Source: Mesorhizobium sp. J18 (lineage in GTDB: Bacteria > Pseudomonadota > Alphaproteobacteria > Rhizobiales > Rhizobiaceae). Taken from it: 64,000 bases of DNA. Location of the stretch: positions 64,514 through 128,513 of the forward strand of contig NZ_VLJP01000067.1 in assembly GCF_007829525.1 (NCBI RefSeq). The letters run 5' to 3'. Both the position numbers and the translations under genes were made by a program. Below are positions 632-50,355 of this stretch, in pieces. Position 1 is the first letter of the stretch. Each line of letters begins with the position of its first letter. The notes under the pieces were generated by a model. The model was not told the DNA's origin, ran no database searches, and saw only the letters and a list, made by a program, of their open reading frames with translations.

Positions 632-797
632 CGGTTGCATTCCTTTCGCGGAGGAGATCTACGGAGCGTTCAAGGGCGGCCCGGCGTTCGGAGTTGACGC
701 CGGCGCGATAGATGACCGTGTGCGACCATGCCAGCAGCCCGAGAACGGCAAGGACAGCGCCGACCTTGAGCCAAGTTCCGATGGCGAGGCCGAACAT
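549..797 (-). CDS. Probable inner-membrane spanin (Rz-like)
   Basis: The 82-residue product has one N-terminal membrane segment (about residues 7-27) followed by a charged helical region with coiled-coil character, the plan of an i-spanin. The ATG is at 797 and overlaps the endolysin stop codon as TGATG, so translation is coupled. A longer upstream reading of this frame is only a shadow of the endolysin gene. The next gene begins inside it. It would act at the last step of lysis with the lipoprotein. The function is inferred from topology and gene order. Confidence 0.6.
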   Translation of the reverse strand: MFGLAIGTWLKVGAVLAVLGLLAWSHTVIYRAGVNSERRAALERSVDLLRERNATDETIRNMDDADLCRALGGRVSDDGTCQ

Positions 798-1612
798 CAC
801 GCCTCCCTCCTCTGGCGCTGAATGAAGGCATAGACGCCGATCCCGACACCGACGATGATCCCCGCAGCCAGCGCCCATTGAACCGGGCCAGTGCCCGCGA
901 ACAGGCTGCCCATGGCCGACAGAAGCCCGCCAAGCGGTCCCCATGCCTCCGGATTCTTGATGATGTCCGTGATGCTCTTATCGGCAGGAGGAGCCTTGCC
1001 CCCTTCCGTCACGAACTTCGGCTCGCTAGCCGGGTTGAGAGGTGCGGCACTGGCGGCCATCCTGAGAGCATTGCCAACCACGCCCGGTCTGGAGGCGTAT
1101 TCGCCTTTCGGATCCTTGCCGGTCACGCGGATCGTCCAGCCACGGCCGAATTTGCTCCAAGTGCGCAGGCCTCGCAGATAGGCCATCCGCTCGTCGCAAT
1201 AGGCGGGGATCAGCTTCTCGATACCGCCGGGATAGCGTTCCACAGCCGCCACAGTCTGGACGCCGACAATGCCGTCCTGTGTGACGCCGATGACCTCCTG
1301 CAGCTTCTTGACAGCCGTCGCCGGCCCAGAGTTCACGCCGAAGTCAAAGGCGGCGTAGTCCAGCCCGCGCGGCAGGAGATCGCCACCTGACTGGGACCAG
1401 TAGGATTTACGGTAGATCGTCTCGGCTTCCTCGACCGTCAGCGCCTTCACTTCGGCAGCGGTTGCAGCCCGACCGAGCTTGCGGGACGAGCCGAGTGTTC
1501 GCGCCGTGATGCCGTATTTCGTAGGACCGCCTGGGTCATCGGGATGATTGGAATACCCGCCCTCGTCTCCGAACATGAGACGGAGGGCTTCGGGAAGCGT
1601 TTCCCGTGCCAT
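797..1612 (-). CDS. Endolysin, glycoside hydrolase family 108 (N-acetylmuramidase)
   Basis: The 271-residue product begins with a GH108 catalytic domain. The motif GDEGGYSNHPDDPGG at residues 15-29 holds the probable catalytic Glu17. A C-terminal half of the PG_binding_3 type follows (GVNSGPATAVKKLQ around residue 95). It would cut the glycan backbone of peptidoglycan. The last 30 residues form one hydrophobic segment (about 242-262) with a basic tail, so the enzyme may be membrane-anchored instead of freely soluble. It is the first gene of the lysis cassette and is coupled to the spanin gene by TGATG. Confidence 0.9.
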   Translation of the reverse strand: MARETLPEALRLMFGDEGGYSNHPDDPGGPTKYGITARTLGSSRKLGRAATAAEVKALTVEEAETIYRKSYWSQSGGDLLPRGLDYAAFDFGVNSGPATAVKKLQEVIGVTQDGIVGVQTVAAVERYPGGIEKLIPAYCDERMAYLRGLRTWSKFGRGWTIRVTGKDPKGEYASRPGVVGNALRMAASAAPLNPASEPKFVTEGGKAPPADKSITDIIKNPEAWGPLGGLLSAMGSLFAGTGPVQWALAAGIIVGVGIGVYAFIQRQRREA

Positions 1613-2273: not shown

Positions 2274-3020
2274 ATGGCGGCAAAGCAGCTTGTGTTTGTA
2301 TGTGGAGTTGCTCGATCCGGCACAACCGCCATTGCGGAACTGCTAAATAAGCACCCAGGAATATGCATGGGAGTGGAGCGTTACAAATTCCGTTTTCTCA
2401 AACAGAACGATTACTCAAGATCACTTTTCGAGAAGGATCGATTTTTCTCATTCTCGCCTGAAGATACCAACATCCTGCCGCAGGCCGGCAAGAAGTGGGC
2501 GGATATCTACGAGAAGATGCAGGCAAAGTGGGAGGACGCTACCACTTTAGGTGATAAAATTCCCGATTTGGTGTACGTTTTGGACACTCTCTTTGATAAC
2601 TTTCCTGACGCAAAGGTAATTTGCATGCTGCGCGACATCGACGGCGTAGCGTCATCTTGGAACGCTAGGGCCGCCAATCCGAAGGACCGATGGAGCGACA
2701 CGGCCGATTATCGGAAAGCAGTCAAGCATTGGAACCGCGCAAATTCAGTCATTGCACGTTCAATTCAGAACTCGCCCGATGCACATTGCGTCATCGCCTA
2801 CGATAAATTCTATTCTGGCCGGTTAGGACAAATCGAACGACTTTGCGACTTCTTAGGAGTGCCGCTGACACCCGACTTTCGAGATGAGTACAATGCGGCC
2901 GTGCACCATTACCAAAAGGTTGTTAAAAGACGTCCACCACACGTCGAGCATGGCCAAGATAATTTTATCGCGGAAAATGCAAATATCAAATTATATCAGA
3001 GACTGATCGGTTATTCCTGA
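2274..3020 (+). CDS. Sulfotransferase family protein
   Basis: The 248-residue product shows the PAPS-binding elements of the sulfotransferase fold. The 5'-phosphosulfate loop is GVARSGTT at residues 11-18, and a 3'-phosphate element is MLRDIDGVASSW at 118-129 (Arg120, Ser127/128). It would move a sulfate from PAPS to a hydroxyl of a carbohydrate or small molecule. The ATG at 2274 has GAGGAG six bases upstream; an ATG at 2241 has none. The gene is AT-richer than its surroundings and lies beside a methyltransferase and a glycosyltransferase, which suggests a surface-glycan modifying cassette. The acceptor is unknown. Confidence 0.8.
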   Translation: MAAKQLVFVCGVARSGTTAIAELLNKHPGICMGVERYKFRFLKQNDYSRSLFEKDRFFSFSPEDTNILPQAGKKWADIYEKMQAKWEDATTLGDKIPDLVYVLDTLFDNFPDAKVICMLRDIDGVASSWNARAANPKDRWSDTADYRKAVKHWNRANSVIARSIQNSPDAHCVIAYDKFYSGRLGQIERLCDFLGVPLTPDFRDEYNAAVHHYQKVVKRRPPHVEHGQDNFIAENANIKLYQRLIGYS

Positions 3021-3067
3021 TTTCATCAAACAGCATCTTCTAAACCATCCCTTGCAAGGGAGTATTC

Positions 3068-3859
3068 ATGCCAGTTATATCGCCCGGTAACGGCCTCGAT
3101 GTTTCAAGACGGGCAAAATCGCGCAGGCGCTTCTTGGCACGATCGCTTGGAGGAAGGCCATACATCGTCCTTGAAATAGGCGCTCTGGATAATCCAACCT
3201 TCATGAAGTCAGAGGGGGACGTTTATTTTGCTGACTTCTTCTCTCAACAAGAATCAGTAAAGCGGCATATTAAAAGCACCGCGCATAATGCTTTCAAGAT
3301 CGTTGATGTAGACTATGTCCTTCGCGATTCCAGCTTGCGCGAGGCAGTTCGAATCCCTCCAGACTTGATCATTGCCAATCATGTTATCGAGCACATACCG
3401 AACCCGATTGGCTGGTTGCAGGAACTGAGAGAGATTGTTGCCCCAGGCGGCCTTCTGTTCCTGTCCGTGCCCGACAAACGATACACTTTCGATTATTTCA
3501 AGCCGGTATCAGATGCGGTCGACTGGATACGAGCCCATGACGAAGCCTTAGAGATGCCGTCCTACTACCAGATCCTTCGCCATCTCTACTATCACGCTGA
3601 CATCACAGAGGGAAAAGCGTGGTCTGGCGACATTCCGGATGACCATATGCACCGTTTAACGATGCCGCAAGCGCTGGAAAAGGCAAAGCAACTTTCGCGC
3701 TCTTATACGGATGTCCACTGCTCTGTGTTTACATACCATAGCTTCCGCACCATCATTCAAGATTTACGGGAGGCCGATCTTATCAACTGGAAGGTCGCAC
3801 ATCACGAAGATGTGCATCAGGGAGAGAACGAGTTCCGTATCGTTCTCGAATCTCTATGA
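3068..3859 (+). CDS. Class I SAM-dependent methyltransferase
   Basis: The 263-residue product has the SAM-binding motif VLEIGALDNP at residues 34-43. Motif-IV-like LIIANHVIEHIPNP and post-motif GGLLFLSVPDKR follow, all typical of the Methyltransf_11 type found in glycan gene clusters. A ribosome-binding site (AAGGGAG) precedes the ATG. It lies 47 bases after the sulfotransferase gene and probably shares its transcript. It probably methylates a sugar or lipid-linked glycan. The gene is AT-richer than the phage genes nearby. The substrate is not deducible. Confidence 0.75.
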   Translation: MPVISPGNGLDVSRRAKSRRRFLARSLGGRPYIVLEIGALDNPTFMKSEGDVYFADFFSQQESVKRHIKSTAHNAFKIVDVDYVLRDSSLREAVRIPPDLIIANHVIEHIPNPIGWLQELREIVAPGGLLFLSVPDKRYTFDYFKPVSDAVDWIRAHDEALEMPSYYQILRHLYYHADITEGKAWSGDIPDDHMHRLTMPQALEKAKQLSRSYTDVHCSVFTYHSFRTIIQDLREADLINWKVAHHEDVHQGENEFRIVLESL

Positions 3860-3955
3860 CTATGAACTGCGCTATTGTTTAACTGTCGTTATGTTCGAAT
3901 CAGTGCACCTATATGCACGTTGCGTCAGCCTGAAAGTCACTCCTAATCTGACGGT

Positions 3956-6900
3956 TCAGGAAAACAGATACTGACGCTGCAGCTCGTACATTCGATCCAC
4001 GGAGCGCTGTGAATAACAGTAAGCCTGCGAGTGCTCTGCCATCCTTAGCAAGCGCGCACGATCTTCAAAGACAGCAGACAGATGAGAGATCCAATCCTCG
4101 GTGGAATTCTCAACCGCGAAACCGCATCGTGCCTTGGCTATTGTATCCCGGTAAGCAGGGACGTCGGAGACAACAGGTAAGATGCCCAAAGCGCCATAGT
4201 CTAGAAGCTTTAGGTCAGACTTTGCGGTGTTGAACGGAGTATCAGCCAGCGGGGCGATACCTATGTCAAAAGGCCCTTGTCGCCGGAACCAGTGCACAAA
4301 GCCAGGGTATGACTGGGCAGATTGAGGCGGGGTAAGCACTTGCAGCCACGGTTTCTGAGGCGGCTTTCGCACCGCGCCAATTATTGTCAAAACGAACTTG
4401 TGCCGACGCGCCAGATGGTCCAGTGCCTCCTCTACCAGGCGAAAATCCTGATCATGAGTTGCGGTGCCGGCATAAACAATCTGGAATGGTCCGCTACTTG
4501 CCTTCAGGGTGCGCCTGTAGTCTCGCCACAAGCGAGGGTCTATGTGGTTTGGAATGATCTGCGGGTTGTACTGAGCGTACGCCTCACTCATAGGCTTTGT
4601 AGAGACCCAGTTTGATTCCGCGTGGGACAATAAATAGTCCAGCGCTGCAATTCTCGGCTTGTAAAGTTCATACTCTGGATGGCGTTCATCCATGAGGGCA
4701 AAGGCATCATCATTGTCTGTGAAAATGCGGACGCCATTCTTACGGCAGAACGTTACAAATTCCTCCGCTCGCTCCAATGAATCGAAGGCCGTCCGTTGAA
4801 CGATAGCGACGTCAGACCGGACGAAGCTCTCGCGCGCAGGGGCCAATGAGAAGTCGACCTCCCCATAGGCCCGATCGGTCGTTAAGGGGCAAACAAGGCG
4901 AATGAAAGCACTTGCCTGAGGGAACTCACGGTCCTTTCTGACAATCGCTCGAACGGACAAACGCCGCTTCTTACCCACAATACCTGGGGCACCTAGGGCA
5001 TCCGAATTCTGGCCCAGCCGGCCGAACACGTCATTGACGATTGTTTGCGCCCGCTGATCAAAGCTGTGCAACGCACGCACCTGCTTACTGATATTCGACT
5101 GGATTGTCTTGACCTGCTCTCCCTTCGGAAGGTCCTGCATTGCCTTCTTTAATTCATCGGCGCTCGAAACTTGAGGCACGATGTCTCCAAAGACCTGCGA
5201 TATTGCATGAACCTGGTCCGAAATGACGCGGCCACCCGATGCCAGAACATCGAAGATCCGGTTCGAGATTAGTCCGAAATCCTTCATAGATCTCCAGTGG
5301 TCGTTCAGAACCACGTTGGACGACTTATAGTAGCCCCCCAGCTCCTTATTGGAGATATTCTCCCCCCGGATCAGCTCCTTTGGGACAAACTTTTCCCACC
5401 GCGTTCCGAAAACAGCGATGTCCACACCGGCATCGATAGCCCATCTCACCATATCGCGGTATTCGTTGCGAGAGTTTCCGACGAACAACGCATCGAAAGT
5501 TTCAGCAGGGGCTTTTCGCTCAGGATTAAAACGATTTATATCCGTCGCCTGCAGGAGTGGCTTTACCTTAGCATCTGTTACATTTGTCAGGAAGTTTGCG
5601 TAACTTAAGGATGCCACATAGACCAGATCGTAAGCTTTGATTTCCTCAAGCGATACTTGGTCCGGATGGCTTATCATCCAAAGTATACTGATTTGCCCGG
5701 GCTTCGGATCATAACTGGTCAAGCCACGTATGACGATAACAACATCATCATCGAAAGAAGAGGCGTTGTCCCAGTCACCGTGAAAATCGATCCTTACTTG
5801 ATGACCGAGCCGGTTCAGGCTTCCGGCGAGCGAATCAGCATAGTGAAAATCGCCCCATTCCTGTCGTTTATCAAAGGGCGCTGGGATCTTGATCGCGAAC
5901 TTGAGCTGGACGTCCTGCACAATCGAATAGCCTGGGAGAATAGGATCGTTCTTCGCCTTGGCTACGACGATATGCCTAAATGCACGGGATTCCTTGACGG
6001 AAATCCTGTTTCTATCGGCGCTACCATTAGTGTACGAGCATCCGACAAAAGGCAAAAAGCCGATTGATTTGGCATGGCGCGTTTGCCGCAGGATTAGGTC
6101 CCAGTCGACCATCCTCCGCAAGCTCTCATCGAAACCACCCCAACGGTCGAGCAGACTGCGGGCGTGACAATACACATTCAGATCGATGAAATTTCCCTTG
6201 AGGCAGTCGTTCCAGTCAAACGGTCTACCTCGAACGTGAATTCCGTTATCGCCTTTAACTTCATCCGCACAGTAGGCAACGTCATGACCATACTTGGTCA
6301 TGAAGCCGACCATCATTGCAAGATAGTCATTTACCCACACATTGTCGGTGTCGAGATACGCGACAATGTCCCCTGCGCACGCAGCCAAGCCAGTATTTCG
6401 CGCCGCGCAAACACCTTTGTGTTGTGACAGATGTAAATGAACTCGAGGATCAGAAAGATATTCTTTTATGACTGAAACCGTTGAATCGGAACTTCCATCA
6501 TCAATAATATGTAACTCAAAGTTCTTGTATGACTGAGATAGAACGGATCTGATCGCCTTTCCTATCGTGCGCTCACGATTATAGGCAGGCATAATTATAC
6601 TCACGAGTGTAGTATCCGCGACTTCTTCAGCCTTCGATTTCAGGCTGGCTATCTCAGCTTCAGGAACCCCTTGTTGCATATTGCCAATTGGCATGCTACC
6701 AACTGGCATGTTGCCCATTCTACCAGCTAGACTGAATACCGGCGCTGCCCCGCCACTCGGCTCTACAAGTTTTCCTTCTACGCGCCCCTGCCTCAAATAA
6801 TGGACCAGAGGATTCTGGCCAGCGACTCTCACATCTGGATATCTTGTAAGATACCGGTTTCCACTGAAATGGGCGCTAGGTTCACGACCCAAGCGCCAGC

Positions 6901-7093
6901 CGAGCCAAAGATAGTGCTCTGCTGGCTCCATGCCGAGTTTGTCGACATCGGGGTTGCTCTTCCGATACCATTCCCCGTCGAAGAAGCGCGAGCTCCGCAC
7001 AAGATCGAGATCAGAGACAGATTTCCCGTCAAGGATGACCTCAGAAACCGTGGCTTTGCCTTGGCGGGGCGTCTTTCCATCTATTGTATTCAT
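3956..7093 (-). CDS. Large three-domain glycosyltransferase
   Basis: The 1045-residue product has four parts. Residues 35-110 contain two aromatic repeats (EWYRKSNPDV and NRYLTRYPDV) of a type seen before bacterial glycosyltransferases. Residues 162-330 are a GT2 domain (VSIIMPAYNRERTIGKA, a DDG at 198-200, DTD at 248-250). About 360-690 resemble a CgeB-like GT4 domain, and about 710-1045 a second GT4-like domain (FQIVYAGTATHDQD). It would transfer up to three sugars in building a surface polysaccharide. A short repetitive linker (residues 126-142) precedes the GT2 domain. It converges on the methyltransferase gene. Such size is unusual for phage cargo. Confidence 0.85.
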   Translation of the reverse strand: MNTIDGKTPRQGKATVSEVILDGKSVSDLDLVRSSRFFDGEWYRKSNPDVDKLGMEPAEHYLWLGWRLGREPSAHFSGNRYLTRYPDVRVAGQNPLVHYLRQGRVEGKLVEPSGGAAPVFSLAGRMGNMPVGSMPIGNMQQGVPEAEIASLKSKAEEVADTTLVSIIMPAYNRERTIGKAIRSVLSQSYKNFELHIIDDGSSDSTVSVIKEYLSDPRVHLHLSQHKGVCAARNTGLAACAGDIVAYLDTDNVWVNDYLAMMVGFMTKYGHDVAYCADEVKGDNGIHVRGRPFDWNDCLKGNFIDLNVYCHARSLLDRWGGFDESLRRMVDWDLILRQTRHAKSIGFLPFVGCSYTNGSADRNRISVKESRAFRHIVVAKAKNDPILPGYSIVQDVQLKFAIKIPAPFDKRQEWGDFHYADSLAGSLNRLGHQVRIDFHGDWDNASSFDDDVVIVIRGLTSYDPKPGQISILWMISHPDQVSLEEIKAYDLVYVASLSYANFLTNVTDAKVKPLLQATDINRFNPERKAPAETFDALFVGNSRNEYRDMVRWAIDAGVDIAVFGTRWEKFVPKELIRGENISNKELGGYYKSSNVVLNDHWRSMKDFGLISNRIFDVLASGGRVISDQVHAISQVFGDIVPQVSSADELKKAMQDLPKGEQVKTIQSNISKQVRALHSFDQRAQTIVNDVFGRLGQNSDALGAPGIVGKKRRLSVRAIVRKDREFPQASAFIRLVCPLTTDRAYGEVDFSLAPARESFVRSDVAIVQRTAFDSLERAEEFVTFCRKNGVRIFTDNDDAFALMDERHPEYELYKPRIAALDYLLSHAESNWVSTKPMSEAYAQYNPQIIPNHIDPRLWRDYRRTLKASSGPFQIVYAGTATHDQDFRLVEEALDHLARRHKFVLTIIGAVRKPPQKPWLQVLTPPQSAQSYPGFVHWFRRQGPFDIGIAPLADTPFNTAKSDLKLLDYGALGILPVVSDVPAYRDTIAKARCGFAVENSTEDWISHLSAVFEDRARLLRMAEHSQAYCYSQRSVDRMYELQRQYLFS
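6676..6719 (-). repeat. Short 15-bp tandem repeat inside the glycosyltransferase gene
   Basis: On the coding strand two full 15-base units (ATGCCAGTTGGTAGC, ATGCCAATTGGCAAT) are flanked by partial copies. They encode a Met-Pro-Val/Ile-Gly-Ser/Asn repeat in the linker before the GT2 domain. Gain or loss of a unit would keep the frame and only change linker length. Confidence 0.6.
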
Positions 7094-7365: not shown

Positions 7366-7584
7366 ATGAAAGATAGAGAGATTGCTGAATTGTTCGCCGC
7401 CCAAACCGCGGTGATGTATTCGCTGGTCGAAGAGCTTATCGCTGCAAACGTCATCGACCGGGACAAATATATTAAAAAATTATACGATCTTCTCAACAAG
7501 CAGGCAGCTCTCTACGATGACAAGCCGTCATCTCGATCCGCGCCTATACGTCATCTTATTCGACTCATCGAAGGGATTGACTAG
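7366..7584 (+). CDS. Small helical protein, function unknown
   Basis: The 72-residue product is mostly charged and helical (KDREIAELFAAQTAVMYSL at the N-terminus). The ATG at 7366 is preferred because the upstream part of the frame is Cys-rich and lacks coding character; no strong ribosome-binding site is visible. It lies alone on the plus strand between the large glycosyltransferase gene (divergent, 272 bases away) and the tail-fibre gene (convergent, 75 bases away). No family was recognised. Confidence 0.5.
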   Translation: MKDREIAELFAAQTAVMYSLVEELIAANVIDRDKYIKKLYDLLNKQAALYDDKPSSRSAPIRHLIRLIEGID

Positions 7585-10758: not shown

Positions 10759-12930
10759 CTAGGAGACGGTCGCCTGATCGGGTCCAGCTAGCGGACCGGC
10801 AATGTCTGACCGGTTGAACGGTTCTGCGTAGATGTCGAATGCGCCGGAACCAGACGCAATCGGAAGTGCATAAGAAATGCCGGGCGCCACAGCGTAGCGC
10901 CCTATAAGATTTGTTGCTCGGTTCAGTGTGGCGCCGGGTGCGGTTTTGTAGATCGCCACCGTGGCGAGATGGGCATCATTAGTGGTGCCGAAGTTTGCAG
11001 TGAATTGACCTGTCCCGTCACCTGCCGAGAACGAAAGCAGGGCGGCTGGCGGTGTGTCATCAACCACGACCGTGACCGGGGCTGTAGAGTTCTGCCAGTC
11101 AAAGGTCTTACCGCTGGCAACATTTCGGATGCGCCAGTCATAAGACCCACCATCAGCCACGGCGGCGAAGATAGCTGTATTCTGATCCTGGTTGACGGTT
11201 GCCGGATTCCATTCATCCGCATCTGCTGCAGATACTTCGACCTGCTGCGCATAGCTGTCCGGCAGGGTGGCCCCGCCAGCCGCGGTCCAGGAGAATTTCA
11301 GTACCGGTGCCGAATTCTCCTGAATCTCCACCGTGACCAAGACAACAAGCGTGACATCGTCAACATTGGCCGGAAGATCGGGTGGGACGATCACCTGATC
11401 CTGTTCATCCTCCGCCGGATTCCAGTCTGTTGCGTTAGCACCGAAGATCATGAACGGGGACGACACGCTCATCTGCTCCGCGTCGTATTCAATCACATCC
11501 GTCGCTGCCGCTACCCTCTCGAAGGTTTCTTCAGGGCTCAGGTCGAGCGTGAAAACGTAATCCTCCATCAGATCGAGAGCTTGCGGTCCCGACGTCAGAG
11601 AGCCGACGTAGTCCGGATTGTTCTCGTAGACGGCAAGTTTCGCGAGGCGCTGCGCTTGCGTTGCAGAGGGGCAGAGATTCACCGTGAACGACGAAAGCAG
11701 TTCCGAGCCATCTTCAACATAGAAGTCAGGATGCCGCCATCGAACCTCATTGGCCTTCCAATTGAGAGCCGGATCGACATATCCGACTTTCACCGTATTG
11801 AACCGCTTCTGAAGCGGACGTCCGCCCTCCAGCTGGATGCTCAGATGATCGCCGTTCATTGCTCGCAGCGCTATACCAGGCGTTGCACGAAGCTTTTGCC
11901 TCACAGCGATCCTGCCTTGCCGGTCCATAAAGACATCACCGTTGCAAACAGACGCGATTGCCTTGATCCGATCCTCGTTTTCGGCATCCAGAAAGATTGG
12001 ACCGGCGCAACGATAGCGCTTTTCCACGCCACCGGATCTCAGCGCGACGTTTTCATCGCAATGCTCTGCAAAGGCAGCGAAACTGTTGAAATCGATATCT
12101 TCCGTGCTTGCCGACGTTAGGCCGTAGACGTCCATGATTTCAGTGAGCAGGCAGCATCCGGCGTTGTCGGAAAAGCCCCAGGAATCCGTCCTCGGGTCAT
12201 AGACATCTTCCAATGCGTCGATGACGAACTGAAGCGACGGCATGTTGTTAGGATAGACATCCTGCAGCTTGTCCTGAGACACCTGCTCAACGATTTGAAG
12301 CGCCATAGCGCAGCCGCGATGGCGGAACGGTGTAAGTGGCGTGTCGAGTTCAGGGAAAGCTGCAAGCAATTCGGCGAATGGCTCATCGTTCATGGTGCCG
12401 AGGGTGGTTAGGATTTGCACCCGCGACCGCCCTCCAACTTGATATTGCTCTTGGGTGACAAAGCCATCCCCGTCCAGTGTCACCGGTTTCTTGTCGAGCC
12501 GAAACGACACGTAGCCACTGATCGGACCTTCGCAGACGTAGTGTAAAAGGTAGGATTTCTCTCCTCTCCTGAAGCCGAAGACGATCACGGAGCCAGTCAG
12601 ATATCGGCCATAGATGCGGCGGCGTGGCGAAATCTCCTGACGGATATTGGTCTGCACATCCGAGGGCTGGGGTGCTGCGGGCTTTTTCTGGAGCGCCAAC
12701 TGCAGTCCGATTGCGGCAGCGGTCACTGCAGCGTAGCCAACGCCAAGTGCTAGTGTTCCGAGCCCCGTGAAACCGAGAACATTGACCGCCCCGACCAACA
12801 ACCCGGTGCTTTGGAGCAAGCCGATGAAAAGCGCACCGACTGCCTGCGGATGGAATACGGCCTGCGAATACAGCGACGTACTGCAACCTAGCCCCCAGGC
12901 TGCGTTCCGACTCCGGATGTAAGTGCTCAT
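10759..12930 (-). CDS. Tail tip attachment protein (J-like)
   Basis: The 723-residue product begins with a hydrophobic region (about 28-80), then resembles the hub domains of tail-tip attachment proteins, with a series of beta-rich regions. The C-terminal third has fibronectin-like modules (SAPVLKFSWTAAGG near 520 and a second unit near 600). It lies between tail-assembly genes and the fibre gene, as lambda J does. Its ATG overlaps the stop of the preceding gene as ATGA. It would form the distal tail hub and hold the fibre. The assignment rests on gene order, size and domain character. Confidence 0.75.
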   Translation of the reverse strand: MSTYIRSRNAAWGLGCSTSLYSQAVFHPQAVGALFIGLLQSTGLLVGAVNVLGFTGLGTLALGVGYAAVTAAAIGLQLALQKKPAAPQPSDVQTNIRQEISPRRRIYGRYLTGSVIVFGFRRGEKSYLLHYVCEGPISGYVSFRLDKKPVTLDGDGFVTQEQYQVGGRSRVQILTTLGTMNDEPFAELLAAFPELDTPLTPFRHRGCAMALQIVEQVSQDKLQDVYPNNMPSLQFVIDALEDVYDPRTDSWGFSDNAGCCLLTEIMDVYGLTSASTEDIDFNSFAAFAEHCDENVALRSGGVEKRYRCAGPIFLDAENEDRIKAIASVCNGDVFMDRQGRIAVRQKLRATPGIALRAMNGDHLSIQLEGGRPLQKRFNTVKVGYVDPALNWKANEVRWRHPDFYVEDGSELLSSFTVNLCPSATQAQRLAKLAVYENNPDYVGSLTSGPQALDLMEDYVFTLDLSPEETFERVAAATDVIEYDAEQMSVSSPFMIFGANATDWNPAEDEQDQVIVPPDLPANVDDVTLVVLVTVEIQENSAPVLKFSWTAAGGATLPDSYAQQVEVSAADADEWNPATVNQDQNTAIFAAVADGGSYDWRIRNVASGKTFDWQNSTAPVTVVVDDTPPAALLSFSAGDGTGQFTANFGTTNDAHLATVAIYKTAPGATLNRATNLIGRYAVAPGISYALPIASGSGAFDIYAEPFNRSDIAGPLAGPDQATVS

Positions 12931-14615: not shown

Positions 14616-16624
14616 CCATGCCGCTCCATCACGTCGCTGATACGTCCCGGTAGGCTCTTGTCGTATTGAGAAATGCCGACTTGGGCGGCACGTCCGCCTT
14701 CCTGTTGCGCTACATCCTTGACGTAGGCTTGCAGGTTGCCGTTCCTGTCTACCGAGACACCAACCGTGACGTGAACATTCTGATTTGCCGCAGGCGTGAT
14801 CCTTGGCGACGTGGTCACATACCCGCCACTGGCATAGCCCTTCGCGCGGCGGTGAAGCTGGTCGAGAGCCCCCACCCCGATGCGATCCGTGGCTCGCTTC
14901 GAGAAAACGTATTCGCCGCCGTGGACAACGCCAGCTACACGATTGGCAGCACCATTCCCAGTGTACCCACCGGAGGCGAAGCCGAGCAACTTACCAATTC
15001 CGCCGAAGATCGCGCCGAGGATGCCGCCCCCTCCTCCGCCGGAGGCAGCCGAATTGGCAGAGAACAACGCGTCCACAAACTGCGTCTCGATCTTGTCGAC
15101 GATCTTGTCCAGAACGTTCAGCGCCGCATTGCCGAAGGACTTCCAGAAGCCTTCGCCATTGGCGAGCCCCTGCCGAAGATCAGACAAAAAGCCTTTCGTT
15201 ACATCCTTGGCGAACGAGAGCGATTCCTTGGTCTTATCAACCTCACCGCGTAGCCCCTTCCACGGGTCTTTTGCTCCTTCCGCAGCCCCTTTAGCTGCTC
15301 TACCAGCTCCAGCAGCAGCATCCTCGACACCGGTGAATGATCCAGCCAGATCCCGAAGCTTGTCAGCGGCTCCCGCGGCAGCGCGCTCTATCGCGCCACC
15401 AACGGCCCCGACATAATCCATACCCTGAGCGTTATCGAAGGCCTCGCGCGCCGCGTCTACCGCGGCAGTTGCGGCTCCCTCGTAGGGGTTTGATGGACGG
15501 CCGAGCTTGACTTCGCCAATCCTCCCGAGCCGTACTCCGTCCTGTCCTATCCACCCGGAAACGGTCGAGATGACACCCTCAATTTTACCAATGAAGGCGT
15601 CGATCTTTTCGATGACGAAGTTGAGCATCTTCTCAACCCCGCCGATTGTGGCATTGGCGGCTTGGTAAACCAAATCGCCGATCGCTGCCGGCAGAAGGCT
15701 CCATGAGGTTTTGATTGCGTTGAAGCCTCCGACAAACGCCCCGATGATGAAGTTCACCGCATTCTTGGCATCCGCAACAATGTCGCGGCCAAATATCTGG
15801 GCCAGCTCATCACGAAAGATGTTCGCGGCGGCTACAGCGGCCGTGATGCCAAGGACGAATGCGGCGGCCGGATTGGCGGCAGCCATGGCTGCAGAAACAG
15901 CCAAGCGGCCCATAAGAGCAATCACTTGCACGATGCCGCCAATGATTGCCGGCGCGTAAAGGAGAGCCAACCCAGCAGCAGCCATTGCCGCATAGGGCGC
16001 AATGGTCTGGAGAACAGACGCAAGGGTATTCAGGGCGGAAGCCCCGAGTTGAGCCCAGTCAACCATTTGAAGGCCAGCCGCCAGAACGGCGGTCAGGCCG
16101 ATCGCGATGAGGGAGACGGGAGAGATCAGCGATCGGAGCGCAGCGCCGAAGACACCTGCGGCTGTGCCACCATTCTGCAAGGCGACTTCCATCTGGCCGG
16201 CGATCTGCGTTCCCTGCTGCAGCGCGATGATCATCGGGTTCATGCCCATGGCCGCGGTGACGCCGATGTCCTGCACCTGGGCGGCCAAGCCGGAAAAGCT
16301 TCCGCCCATACGGCGAGCATTGTCGTTCGCCGCATTTCCCACTTGGGTAAGGGATTGGGCAGCGCTCTGCGAGCCGGAGCGAAGCCGAGTGAGCGCGGAC
16401 CAGAGACGGGTGAAGAACCCCTCCGCCCTCGCCGCCGCCTGCCCCGCTGAGTTCGTTTGAGACGCCACCTCGGCGGCAGCAGACGCTGCGCTTCGTGCGC
16501 CCGCCGCCGTCCCCTTTGTCGCTGCCTCCGCCTGCTTAGCAGCAGCGGAAAGCTTCGTGAGCGAAACGGCGCCCTTGTCGGCCTGAGAGCTATCGACGGC
16601 AATGCCAAGCGAGGCGATGTCCAT
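14612..16624 (-). CDS. Tail length tape measure protein
   Basis: The 670-residue product shows the usual tape-measure plan. An Ala-rich helical N-terminus carries a TMP_2-like segment (LAAQVQDIGVTAAMGMNP near residue 110). Hydrophobic stretches lie at about 150-290, and a Gly-rich C-terminal part ends in a region resembling lambda-type tape measures (GGYTGNGAANRVAGVVHGGE). It sets tail length and is ejected with the DNA. It lies three bases after the frameshifted chaperone gene, as expected. It is short for a siphovirus, suggesting a tail of about 100 nm by the usual ratio. Confidence 0.9.
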   Translation of the reverse strand: MDIASLGIAVDSSQADKGAVSLTKLSAAAKQAEAATKGTAAGARSAASAAAEVASQTNSAGQAAARAEGFFTRLWSALTRLRSGSQSAAQSLTQVGNAANDNARRMGGSFSGLAAQVQDIGVTAAMGMNPMIIALQQGTQIAGQMEVALQNGGTAAGVFGAALRSLISPVSLIAIGLTAVLAAGLQMVDWAQLGASALNTLASVLQTIAPYAAMAAAGLALLYAPAIIGGIVQVIALMGRLAVSAAMAAANPAAAFVLGITAAVAAANIFRDELAQIFGRDIVADAKNAVNFIIGAFVGGFNAIKTSWSLLPAAIGDLVYQAANATIGGVEKMLNFVIEKIDAFIGKIEGVISTVSGWIGQDGVRLGRIGEVKLGRPSNPYEGAATAAVDAAREAFDNAQGMDYVGAVGGAIERAAAGAADKLRDLAGSFTGVEDAAAGAGRAAKGAAEGAKDPWKGLRGEVDKTKESLSFAKDVTKGFLSDLRQGLANGEGFWKSFGNAALNVLDKIVDKIETQFVDALFSANSAASGGGGGGILGAIFGGIGKLLGFASGGYTGNGAANRVAGVVHGGEYVFSKRATDRIGVGALDQLHRRAKGYASGGYVTTSPRITPAANQNVHVTVGVSVDRNGNLQAYVKDVAQQEGGRAAQVGISQYDKSLPGRISDVMERHG

Positions 16625-21665: not shown

Positions 21666-21705
21666 ATGTCCCTTACTCCAGCTTGGCTCAACAGGATCGA
21701 TGCTA

Positions 21706-22215
21706 ATGACCGACGTGACCGCCGTGAGGCGCCTCGATCTAAATCGATACCTTGGGCGCTGGTATGAAATCTGCCGCTTGCCCTTGAGATGGGAAGACGA
21801 GACGGCGACCGACATTACCGCGAACTACTCGCTAAACGAGGACGGGAACGTCAGGGTCGACAATAGATGCTTCGATGAAGACGGTAAGCCATCTCAAGCA
21901 GTTGGCGAGGCCGTGCCCGTTGACGATGCAAAATCTCGCCTGAAACTCACCTTCCTGCCCGAATACATCCGCTGGATACCGTTCACCAAAGCAGACTATT
22001 GGGTCCTCAAAATCGACCCCGACTACCACACGGCTTTGGTCGGCACGCCGGATCGAAAGTACCTTTGGATTCTGTCTCGCCAGCCTGAGATATCCGAAGA
22101 GACGAAAGCCGAATTTCTTGCTGAAGCCCGCCGGCAAGGTTTCGACCTTACCCATCTTATAACCCCGCGGCACACAGGCCGCGAGGTAACAGATGAAATG
22201 CTCGAGAGGGATTAG
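21706..22215 (+). CDS. Lipocalin family protein (Blc-like), cargo gene
   Basis: The 169-residue product has the lipocalin signature near its N-terminus (YLGRWYEICRLP, with the invariant Gly-x-Trp). A second conserved stretch is TDITANYSLNEDGNVRVDN, and DPDYHTALVGTPDRKYLWILSR follows, all as in bacterial lipocalins. There is no signal peptide or lipobox, so it would be cytoplasmic, unlike Blc of E. coli. The ATG at 21706 has AGGA nine bases upstream; ATG 21700 is also possible. It lies on the plus strand inside the head genes, ending four bases into the next gene. Confidence 0.8.
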   Translation: MTDVTAVRRLDLNRYLGRWYEICRLPLRWEDETATDITANYSLNEDGNVRVDNRCFDEDGKPSQAVGEAVPVDDAKSRLKLTFLPEYIRWIPFTKADYWVLKIDPDYHTALVGTPDRKYLWILSRQPEISEETKAEFLAEARRQGFDLTHLITPRHTGREVTDEMLERD

Positions 22216-25179: not shown

Positions 25180-26073
25180 TTGAACGTCTCAATGGATTTG
25201 AACGCACAACAGATGCTCGCCAAGCAAAAAGCTATGCTGGCGGAAGTTACCCCGTCAGAATTGATGCAAAGAGTGCGCGACTTTCGCCGGAGTGAACATA
25301 GAACCCTGAACGACGAGCAACTTACACAGGAAATCCTTAAGGTCATGTCCGTGAATTCATCGGACGGCAGCCAAAGGGCATTTCTTAAAATTCACGTCAC
25401 AGAATTTCCAACTGGAACACTATTCTTTCGAGCTCGCCGCGCGGAGGATAGTTCGATACCGCCGCAAACAGGCACAACCATAAGAGATTCAGAAGCTCCT
25501 GACGGCTCATTGGTCAGAAGACCAGGCAGACTGCATAAAATCGGGGAGTCCGTATTATACACGGCAATACATGACCCCCACATCACGTTGTCCGAATGCA
25601 GGATACCTGTCGGCAGCCACGCCGTAATTTTTGCATACAAAGCAAGACGGTCTATCAAGGCTCCTATAATAGGAGCCACAGAGCATGGATCGGAATTTAC
25701 CGATGAAGAAAAGCTGAAGCTTAATATTATCAACGATTTTCTGCACGATGAATTCGCTCGTGAAGTCGAAGTGGGACTTGAGCACCTATACCGTTCGTCG
25801 GAAATCATTGCGAAATGGTGGTTTGACGGGCCACCCGAGCTGCAGGATTGCTGGGTTTATTCTTCCACCAAAAATCGGCAATCACTGAACGCCGCCTTCC
25901 GGCCAATGAAAGCTCACGAGTGTTTAGATCTCGTTGGATCCATCTTGGTGCGGCGCATTGGGGAGAACCAGATGCAATGTTTGTCTGTCGGCAAGCCAAA
26001 CAAGAAGAAGTTTCAGTACTTCCCAATTGGTTCACCCGAACAGAAAGTTCTATTCCCTCAGATCGGTGCTTAG
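25180..26073 (+). CDS. RES-domain-containing protein, cargo gene
   Basis: The 297-residue product contains a stretch resembling the RES domain of NAD+-degrading toxins. It has FFRAR at 82-86, GRLHKIGESVLYTAIHDPHITLSE at about 116-139 (Glu139), and DCWVYSST at 223-230. These supply candidate Arg, Glu and Ser residues in the family order. The TTG at 25180 is preferred because GGGGGGAG lies six bases upstream. It lies on the plus strand between protease and portal genes, is AT-richer, and its 3' end overlaps the portal gene by 24 bases. No antitoxin lies beside it. A defence or exclusion role is only a possibility. Confidence 0.65.
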   Translation: MNVSMDLNAQQMLAKQKAMLAEVTPSELMQRVRDFRRSEHRTLNDEQLTQEILKVMSVNSSDGSQRAFLKIHVTEFPTGTLFFRARRAEDSSIPPQTGTTIRDSEAPDGSLVRRPGRLHKIGESVLYTAIHDPHITLSECRIPVGSHAVIFAYKARRSIKAPIIGATEHGSEFTDEEKLKLNIINDFLHDEFAREVEVGLEHLYRSSEIIAKWWFDGPPELQDCWVYSSTKNRQSLNAAFRPMKAHECLDLVGSILVRRIGENQMQCLSVGKPNKKKFQYFPIGSPEQKVLFPQIGA

Positions 26074-48970: not shown

Positions 48971-49153
48971 ATGAGCCGGGCGCTTGCTCTCAACCAGCGC
49001 CAGATTCGCGCTCTATGCGAGGGCGCGAAAAAGGCCGGATATGCACCGATCGTCCAGATTGGCAACGTGCTGGTGCGGCTTGTCCCCGAAGATCGCGCTA
49101 TCCCTCCACAGGACAATGAGCGGATTGACGAGGAAAGGGTGATTGATCTTTGA
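48971..49153 (+). CDS. Small protein before integrase, possible excisionase
   Basis: The 60-residue product begins MSRALALNQRQIRALCEGAKKAGY, with a helix-turn-helix-like run, and continues into a short beta pattern (VQIGNVLVRLVPED). Its position directly before integrase and its size fit an excisionase, but no MerR-like motif is clear. Confidence 0.5.
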   Translation: MSRALALNQRQIRALCEGAKKAGYAPIVQIGNVLVRLVPEDRAIPPQDNERIDEERVIDL

Positions 49154-49161
49154 GGGAAGTC

Positions 49162-50247
49162 ATGCCCCGCAAGCTGCCCCTCTATGTCTCGATTGAGACC
49201 ACCCGCCACGGAAAGAAGGTGGCCTATTTCCGGCGCGGCAAGGGCCAGCGGATTCGGATGCCGAATGCTGATCCGAGCAGCAAGGCGTTTAAGGACGCCT
49301 ATGAAGCAGTGCTTGCGGGAGATGCCGCGCAACGGCCCACAGGCGACCGTGCAGCGGCTCCAAAATCTCTCCGGTGGTTGATACTCCGCTACAAGGAAAG
49401 CGCGTCGTGGAGGCAGCTATCGGACGCCACGCGCTATCAGAGAGACAAGATATTCGAGAAGGTTGTCCAGAAGTCAGGGAATGAGCCGTTCGCGGCCATA
49501 GACAAGCGCACAATGCAACGCGCAATGGATAAGCGGGCAGACACGCCAGCGCAAGCGAACAGCTTCCTGAAAGCCATGCGCGGCCTGTTTGACTGGGCTG
49601 TGCGCAACGATCAAGTCACATCCAATCCCTGCGATGGCGTCGAACGCCTTAGAGACAAGACTGACGGGATTCCGGCTTGGACCGTTGATGATGTGATCGC
49701 CTTCCGGGAGAAGCACCCGATCGGGACAAAGCCGCGCCTTGCTATGGAATTCATGCTTCTGACGGGCTTACGCCGTGGCGACATGGCAACCGTTGGCAGG
49801 CAGCATATCCGCGATGGCGTCCTGACCTTGCGGACGGGCAAGACGGGCACAGTGATAACCATCATCCTGCCGCAGTACCTTCTCGACATGATCGATGCCA
49901 CGCCGATCAGCGGAATGCACCTGATAGGGCAGGACAATGGAAAACCCTACACGGTAGAGAGCTTCGGGAACAATTTCCGGGATTGGTGCGACGAAGCGGG
50001 CGTGACGAAAAGCGCCCATGGCCTGCGTAAGCTATCGGCCACACTGGCGGCGGAAGGTGGCGCGGCCGCTCACGAGCTCATGGCCCAGTATGGCTGGACG
50101 AAGATGTCCATGGCTGAAATTTATACCAAAGGTGCCGACAGAGTGCGCCTCGGCATCAAGAATTCTGCCATCGTCGCGGAGCAGATCGGGAACATATCGC
50201 CCCGCACCCATAATTCCGGTGCGGGGAATGTCGCGAAAAAAGCTTGA
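49162..50247 (+). CDS. Tyrosine recombinase / phage integrase
   Basis: The 361-residue product has a core-binding domain (about 65-160) and a catalytic domain with Arg204 (TGLRRGD), Lys227 (RTGKTG), His286 and Arg289 (HGLRK), Trp312 and Tyr321 (EIYTK). It integrates and excises the prophage. The ATG at 49162 has GAGGGAAG four bases upstream; a TTG 12 bases earlier is less likely. It reads towards the tRNA-Leu gene 23 bases away. Confidence 0.93.
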   Translation: MPRKLPLYVSIETTRHGKKVAYFRRGKGQRIRMPNADPSSKAFKDAYEAVLAGDAAQRPTGDRAAAPKSLRWLILRYKESASWRQLSDATRYQRDKIFEKVVQKSGNEPFAAIDKRTMQRAMDKRADTPAQANSFLKAMRGLFDWAVRNDQVTSNPCDGVERLRDKTDGIPAWTVDDVIAFREKHPIGTKPRLAMEFMLLTGLRRGDMATVGRQHIRDGVLTLRTGKTGTVITIILPQYLLDMIDATPISGMHLIGQDNGKPYTVESFGNNFRDWCDEAGVTKSAHGLRKLSATLAAEGGAAAHELMAQYGWTKMSMAEIYTKGADRVRLGIKNSAIVAEQIGNISPRTHNSGAGNVAKKA

Positions 50248-50270
50248 GTTTCAATACCCTAGAAAACCGT

Positions 50271-50355
50271 TGGTGCCCCTGGCCGGGATCGAACCAGCAC
50301 TCCTTGCGGAACTCGATTTTGAGTCGAGCGCGTCTACCAATTCCGCCACAGGGGC
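50271..50355 (-). tRNA. tRNA-Leu (anticodon CAA)
   Basis: The minus strand gives an 85-base tRNA beginning GCCCCTG and ending CAGGGGC ACCA, with D-arm GCGGAATTGGTAGACGC, anticodon arm CTCGA-CTCAAAA-TCGAG (anticodon CAA), a short variable arm and T-arm GCTGGTTCGATCCCGGC. The gene is intact and its 3' end faces the prophage. Confidence 0.95.

Follow-up and report, generated by a model that had tools for sequence, protein, structure and literature searches.

Between the tail fibre gene and the endolysin gene of a prophage lie three genes that encode a sulfotransferase, a methyltransferase and a large modular glycosyltransferase (Table 1). Positions are those of the window, i.e., the whole stretch of 64,000 nucleotides that was analysed, G000:C57:64514-128513, unless a locus with its own number is named. 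The sulfotransferase and methyltransferase genes are oriented against the late genes, while the glycosyltransferase gene is oriented with them; this mixed orientation rules out that the trio forms a single operon. The fibre carries a BNR domain and an N-terminal anchor that is common to related phages, and the hub next to it is akin to protein H of phage 16-3 (27%).

Table 1 Features of the cassette, its borders and the right end of the prophage (window positions).
Feature	Position	Strand	Match or remark
Endolysin, far border of the slot	797..1612	-	Glyco_hydro_108 (GH108), 1e-25
PAPS-dependent sulfotransferase, 248 aa, cassette gene 1	2274..3020	+	Sulfotransfer_3, 2e-26, 94 bits (cut-off 27)
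SAM-dependent methyltransferase, 263 aa, cassette gene 2	3068..3859	+	Methyltransf_23, 1e-12, 48 bits (cut-off 27); LEIGALDNP motif
Modular glycosyltransferase, 1045 aa, cassette gene 3	3956..7093	-	Pfam matches (see text)
Small ORF, 72 aa, between glycosyltransferase and fibre	7366..7584	+	no significant family match
Tail fibre with BNR domain, 1022 aa	7660..10728	-	BNR_4, 6e-21
Tail hub/host-specificity protein, TipJ/J-like	10759..12930	-	phrog_5616, 2e-85
Prophage integrase, beside the right att repeat	49150..50247	+	phrog_1, 2e-42
attR core	50269..50285	.	17-bp repeat at the 3' end of tRNA-Leu(CAA); attL copy at -5822, beyond the left edge of the window
tRNA-Leu	50271-50355

The cassette and its prophage

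All three reading frames of the cassette are open and have their key or catalytic motifs in place. The Sulfotransfer_3 match of the first protein spans residues 7-199, and ARSGTT and RDIDGVASS motifs are present; with the 5'-phosphosulfate loop, the 3'-phosphate motif and a match over the full domain, the product of 2274-3020 is a PAPS sulfotransferase. Its start is preceded by a GAGGAG ribosome site, and AAGGGAG stands ahead of the methyltransferase start. The glycosyltransferase begins with a repeat region, which is followed by a GT2 domain (Glycos_transf_2, 2e-32), a GT1-like domain (Glyco_trans_1_2, 5e-14) and a GT4-like domain (Glycos_transf_1, just over the cut-off). Its last third resembles the moron glycosyltransferase family phrog_7162 (1e-32). 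An AlphaFold model of this protein from a two-row alignment reached a mean pLDDT of 35 and was discarded. According to a hydropathy scan, none of the three proteins has a transmembrane segment, and they should thus act in the cytoplasm. A pattern scan for promoters and terminators of the cassette stayed near the level of shuffled sequence and yielded no convincing promoter.

The trio also stands out by its base composition. Compared with non-overlapping prophage windows of the same length, the GC content of the cassette is 0.506 versus 0.592 elsewhere (standard deviation 0.0137) and falls below the prophage minimum of 0.555. The initial annotation had described a trio of glycan-modifying enzymes near the fibre gene that is AT-richer than its surroundings. 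Both points held: the three genes are intact, correctly placed and supported by Pfam, and the low GC content is confirmed by the window comparison. As extra genes of foreign composition that are missing at the same place in relatives, they qualify in these respects as a moron.

The cassette is phage-borne and lies within a provirus of ~56 kb in a host genome of 4.26 Mb, 8 kb in from the left end of the provirus. A 17-bp exact repeat at window -5822 and 50269 marks the provirus bounds, and the same provirus is present in IMG/VR as UViG_2505679056_000004. We take the phage to be a temperate siphovirus. Its host probably belongs to the Rhizobiaceae, since a chromosomal MetA shares about 70% identity with the MetA proteins of Sinorhizobium, Rhizobium and Shinella. 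Two further genes of this prophage attracted our attention. An unusual moron at 21700-22215 (+) encodes a lipocalin (Lipocalin_2, 4e-48) and interrupts the head and head-tail genes in antisense orientation. In addition, an antisense ORF of 297 aa at 25180-26073 (+), between the portal and head protease genes, has a GC content of 0.485 and no Pfam match; it is another foreign-looking insertion.

A second copy of the trio, which at unrelated sites free of phage links would have spoken against the initial annotation, was not found. Only single-gene or part-length relatives came up in chromosomal and plasmid polysaccharide clusters, namely the chromosomal clusters L036-L038 and L096 and a Shinella plasmid cluster for capsule ABC export, which contains a relative of the glycosyltransferase (35% over 88%, in two pieces); L094 is a lone AT-richer gene. 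Relatives of the sulfotransferase were found neither among 50,697 phage records nor, at 1e-15, in 200 genomes of related organisms. Scanning genome contigs with the glycosyltransferase gave weak GT2 matches only. A separate AT-rich island of the host genome (L019; G000:C24:53000-63000, GC down to 0.41) encodes modular glycosyltransferases and a Sulfotransfer_2 protein, and one of these glycosyltransferases has the N-terminal repeat in common with that of the cassette.

Slot content in related phages

We selected related phages by a homologous tail hub or fibre N-terminal anchor, blind to what they carry behind the fibre, from viral contigs, genomes of the family and order, and named phages (8 inspected), which left 28 phages after merging duplicates. 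An enzyme was counted if it lay downstream of the fibre and scored above its Pfam cut-off. In nine of the 28 phages, this place is taken by another enzyme, i.e., a glycosyltransferase, an acyltransferase-3 or a SAM methyltransferase, mostly in antisense. These are an FkbM methyltransferase accompanied by a 1179-aa protein with a HAD domain (L056), Acyl_transf_3 proteins (L059 and L069), a Methyltransf_25 protein (L040), FkbM proteins (L076, Sinorhizobium phage AP-16-3 and, as p49 ahead of the chitinase, Sinorhizobium phage phi3LM21), a Methyltransf_23 protein (Sinorhizobium phage NV1.1.1) and a GT99 protein with a Methyltransf_24 protein immediately ahead of the lysozyme (Agrobacterium phage Rivra). 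Weaker or ambiguous cases are a Wzy_C match slightly below the cut-off (L073), a heparinase-like gene (L077), a sub-threshold GDPD match (L074) and a sulfatase (L072). No glycan-type enzyme was seen in the slot of L015, L016, L057, L058/L039, L080, L084 and L085/L086, and the fibre of L041 apparently lies at the prophage edge. Roughly two thirds of the related phages have no clear enzyme at this place.

A counterpart was found in the metagenomic phage L010, where a full-length glycosyltransferase 54% identical to that of the cassette stands beside the fibre, accompanied by TOD1/MUCI70 and GSCFA genes. As it was retrieved via the glycosyltransferase itself, this phage is outside the count of nine. 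Apart from these two glycosyltransferases, the slot enzymes are largely non-homologous to one another, with faint similarity in the acyltransferase pair and between two FkbM proteins. The slot has thus been filled repeatedly, and judging from these comparisons the region between the tail fibre and lysis genes is a variable slot. Most slot enzymes are encoded antisense to the late operon, as are the sulfotransferase and methyltransferase of the cassette but not its glycosyltransferase.

To compare the slot with the rest of the genomes, we ran Pfam scans on 48 other proteins of the prophage and its left arm and on 80 non-slot proteins of related phages. None of these 128 proteins is a glycosyltransferase, sulfotransferase, acyltransferase or non-DNA methyltransferase, versus 5 of the 16 slot proteins that were scanned from 20 viral and genome phages (Fisher p ~1e-5, or 6e-4 against the 48 proteins of the own prophage alone), which we read as an indication and not as a full enrichment test, the control consisting largely of conserved structural genes.

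Two of the related phages have further genes of note. In L056, a protein with an H-NS C-terminal domain (14981-15304, -; 2e-13) adjoins the AT-rich glycan genes and might silence them. In L072, the sulfatase is a protein of 727 aa with RTX repeats (3636-5819, -) that lies behind the fibre in the direction of the virion genes, and it may act on sulfated glycans as part of the virion.

Possible function of the cassette

Given an intact, phage-borne cassette of foreign composition in a slot that relatives fill with other glycan-type enzymes, we consider it probable, at about 60%, that the trio is a receptor-modifying moron for lysogenic conversion with superinfection exclusion, which acts through soluble enzymes on a surface polysaccharide built in the cytoplasm. 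In the lysogen, these enzymes would decorate a host surface polysaccharide, for example a Kps-type ABC-exported capsule, with sugar, methyl and sulfate groups during its assembly in the cytoplasm. The altered glycan would then be a poorer ligand for the fibre or hub of the own phage and its relatives, and the outcome would be lysogenic conversion and superinfection exclusion. In the Kps pathway, synthesis of the capsule ends in the cytoplasm, and export follows. A Kps-type capsule locus of the host genome encodes KpsC- and KpsS-type proteins, and neighbouring frames resemble KpsD, KpsE and an ABC ATPase as judged by eye. The host also has an APS kinase for the supply of PAPS. H-type phages may use a capsular K antigen, a point that did not turn up in the literature searched, where we also found nothing useful on the receptor of phage 16-3.

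Expression in the lysogen, the glycan substrate, the identity of the receptor and exclusion are the parts of this proposal that we infer. The antisense position of the sulfotransferase and methyltransferase genes relative to the late genes suggests that they have promoters of their own, orientation being suggestive only; the glycosyltransferase, which is oriented with the late genes, might be made only during lytic growth. Since methyltransferase families are broad, a glycan is the presumed substrate. The closest solved structures to the sulfotransferase are protein-tyrosine sulfotransferases, and by this resemblance its target may be a protein rather than a glycan. The serotype-conversion or exclusion system suggested by the initial annotation gains ground in part: the glycan-type enzymes in the slot of relatives, compared with 0 of 128 proteins outside it, speak for receptor modification and exclusion as a putative function.

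The same gene content would also suit a conversion that benefits the host, in which a changed capsule or LPS helps against grazing, on surfaces or in plant contact and leaves the phage's own receptor unaffected. Single-gene relatives in host polysaccharide clusters agree with this, but the recurrent position beside the fibre fits a linkage to receptor recognition, or a tolerance of insertions, better, and we regard such a host benefit as unlikely. Tolerance is the basis of a different explanation, namely that the end of the late operon accepts insertions and has picked up abundant mobile polysaccharide genes as chance cargo with little or no selected function. Slot contents that are AT-rich, patchy and unrelated would be expected in this case, and the tolerant-site argument has been raised for P22-like morons (PMC2629481). 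However, the three frames are all intact with catalytic motifs, and other morons of the prophage, such as the lipocalin, lie elsewhere, whereas among the proteins scanned, glycan-type families came up in the slot only. We therefore judge chance cargo to be improbable.

The position of the glycosyltransferase directly behind the fibre and in late-gene orientation could point to a role in the lytic phase, with the enzymes modifying virion fibres or intracellular glycans rather than the lysogen surface. The other two cassette genes and most slot genes elsewhere oppose the late operon, however, which makes this very improbable. Least convincing is a modification of Nod factors or another symbiotic signal by the sulfotransferase and its neighbours, which the initial annotation had offered as altered rhizobial symbiotic signalling. 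The sulfotransferase does match NoeE, but over a 29-residue co-factor loop only and with 22.7 bits where the cut-off is 500, so that it was rejected as a nodulation sulfotransferase of the NoeE/NodH type. A search of the host genome for NodA gave no match, a weak argument as control genomes likewise gave no match. We thus give this proposal hardly any credence.

Comparison with known phage systems

Phage seroconversion has been elucidated chiefly in enterics and Pseudomonas, and our results suggest a comparable and apparently unnamed slot in phages that infect rhizobia and their relatives, some of these phages being cultured. In the literature searched, with incomplete coverage, we found neither an account of this slot nor a report of a prophage sulfotransferase as receptor modifier. 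If receptor modification is indeed its function, lysogeny would reshape the chemistry of capsule or LPS in plant-associated bacteria, and knowing the slot contents would aid in predicting which phages exclude which. More tentatively, we raise the possibility of a widespread alphaproteobacterial siphovirus group with a dedicated and swappable receptor-remodelling slot beside the fibre, which here would employ soluble enzymes including sulfation on an ABC-exported capsule finished in the cytoplasm, unlike the membrane-bound gtr and oac systems.

The gtrABC genes of P22 and epsilon34 are alike in that a temperate phage alters the surface polysaccharide and changes the serotype of its host (PMC2629481). 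In epsilon34, they are genes 20-22 and adjoin the tailspike gene 19. However, the flippase GtrA and GtrC are membrane proteins that act at or beyond the inner membrane, whereas the cassette encodes three soluble proteins, among them enzymes for sulfation and methylation. Having no membrane counterparts of GtrA and GtrC, and only a GT2 domain that resembles GtrB, it does not belong to the gtrABC systems. The oac O-acetylases of Sf6, Sf101 and Pseudomonas D3 show that one phage enzyme can change the O-antigen to a form that phages fail to bind (PMC11436027), and the sister phages L059 and L069 hold acyltransferase-3 genes in their slots. The cassette itself was rejected as a member of this class, as none of its genes matches PF01757.

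Among the named phages, p49 of phi3LM21 and the GT99 and methyltransferase genes of Rivra occupy this slot as well, with the fibre gene ahead of them and a lysis enzyme gene after them, and represent the same enzyme classes, but they are not homologous to the cassette genes; p49 has been noted as an auxiliary metabolism gene only (PMC5537653). In Rhizobium phage 16-3, the corresponding position, which follows h and p023, belongs to immX, which has an immunity function (PMC10460002) and, unlike the cassette, is described as repressor-type immunity and not as glycan enzymes. Where phage 16-3 has immXl and immXu (immX locus, L100 12454-12888), AP-16-3 and NV1.1.1 carry their FkbM and Methyltransf_23 genes (L104 10553-11182; L102 13404-14303), both of which are annotated only as hypothetical.
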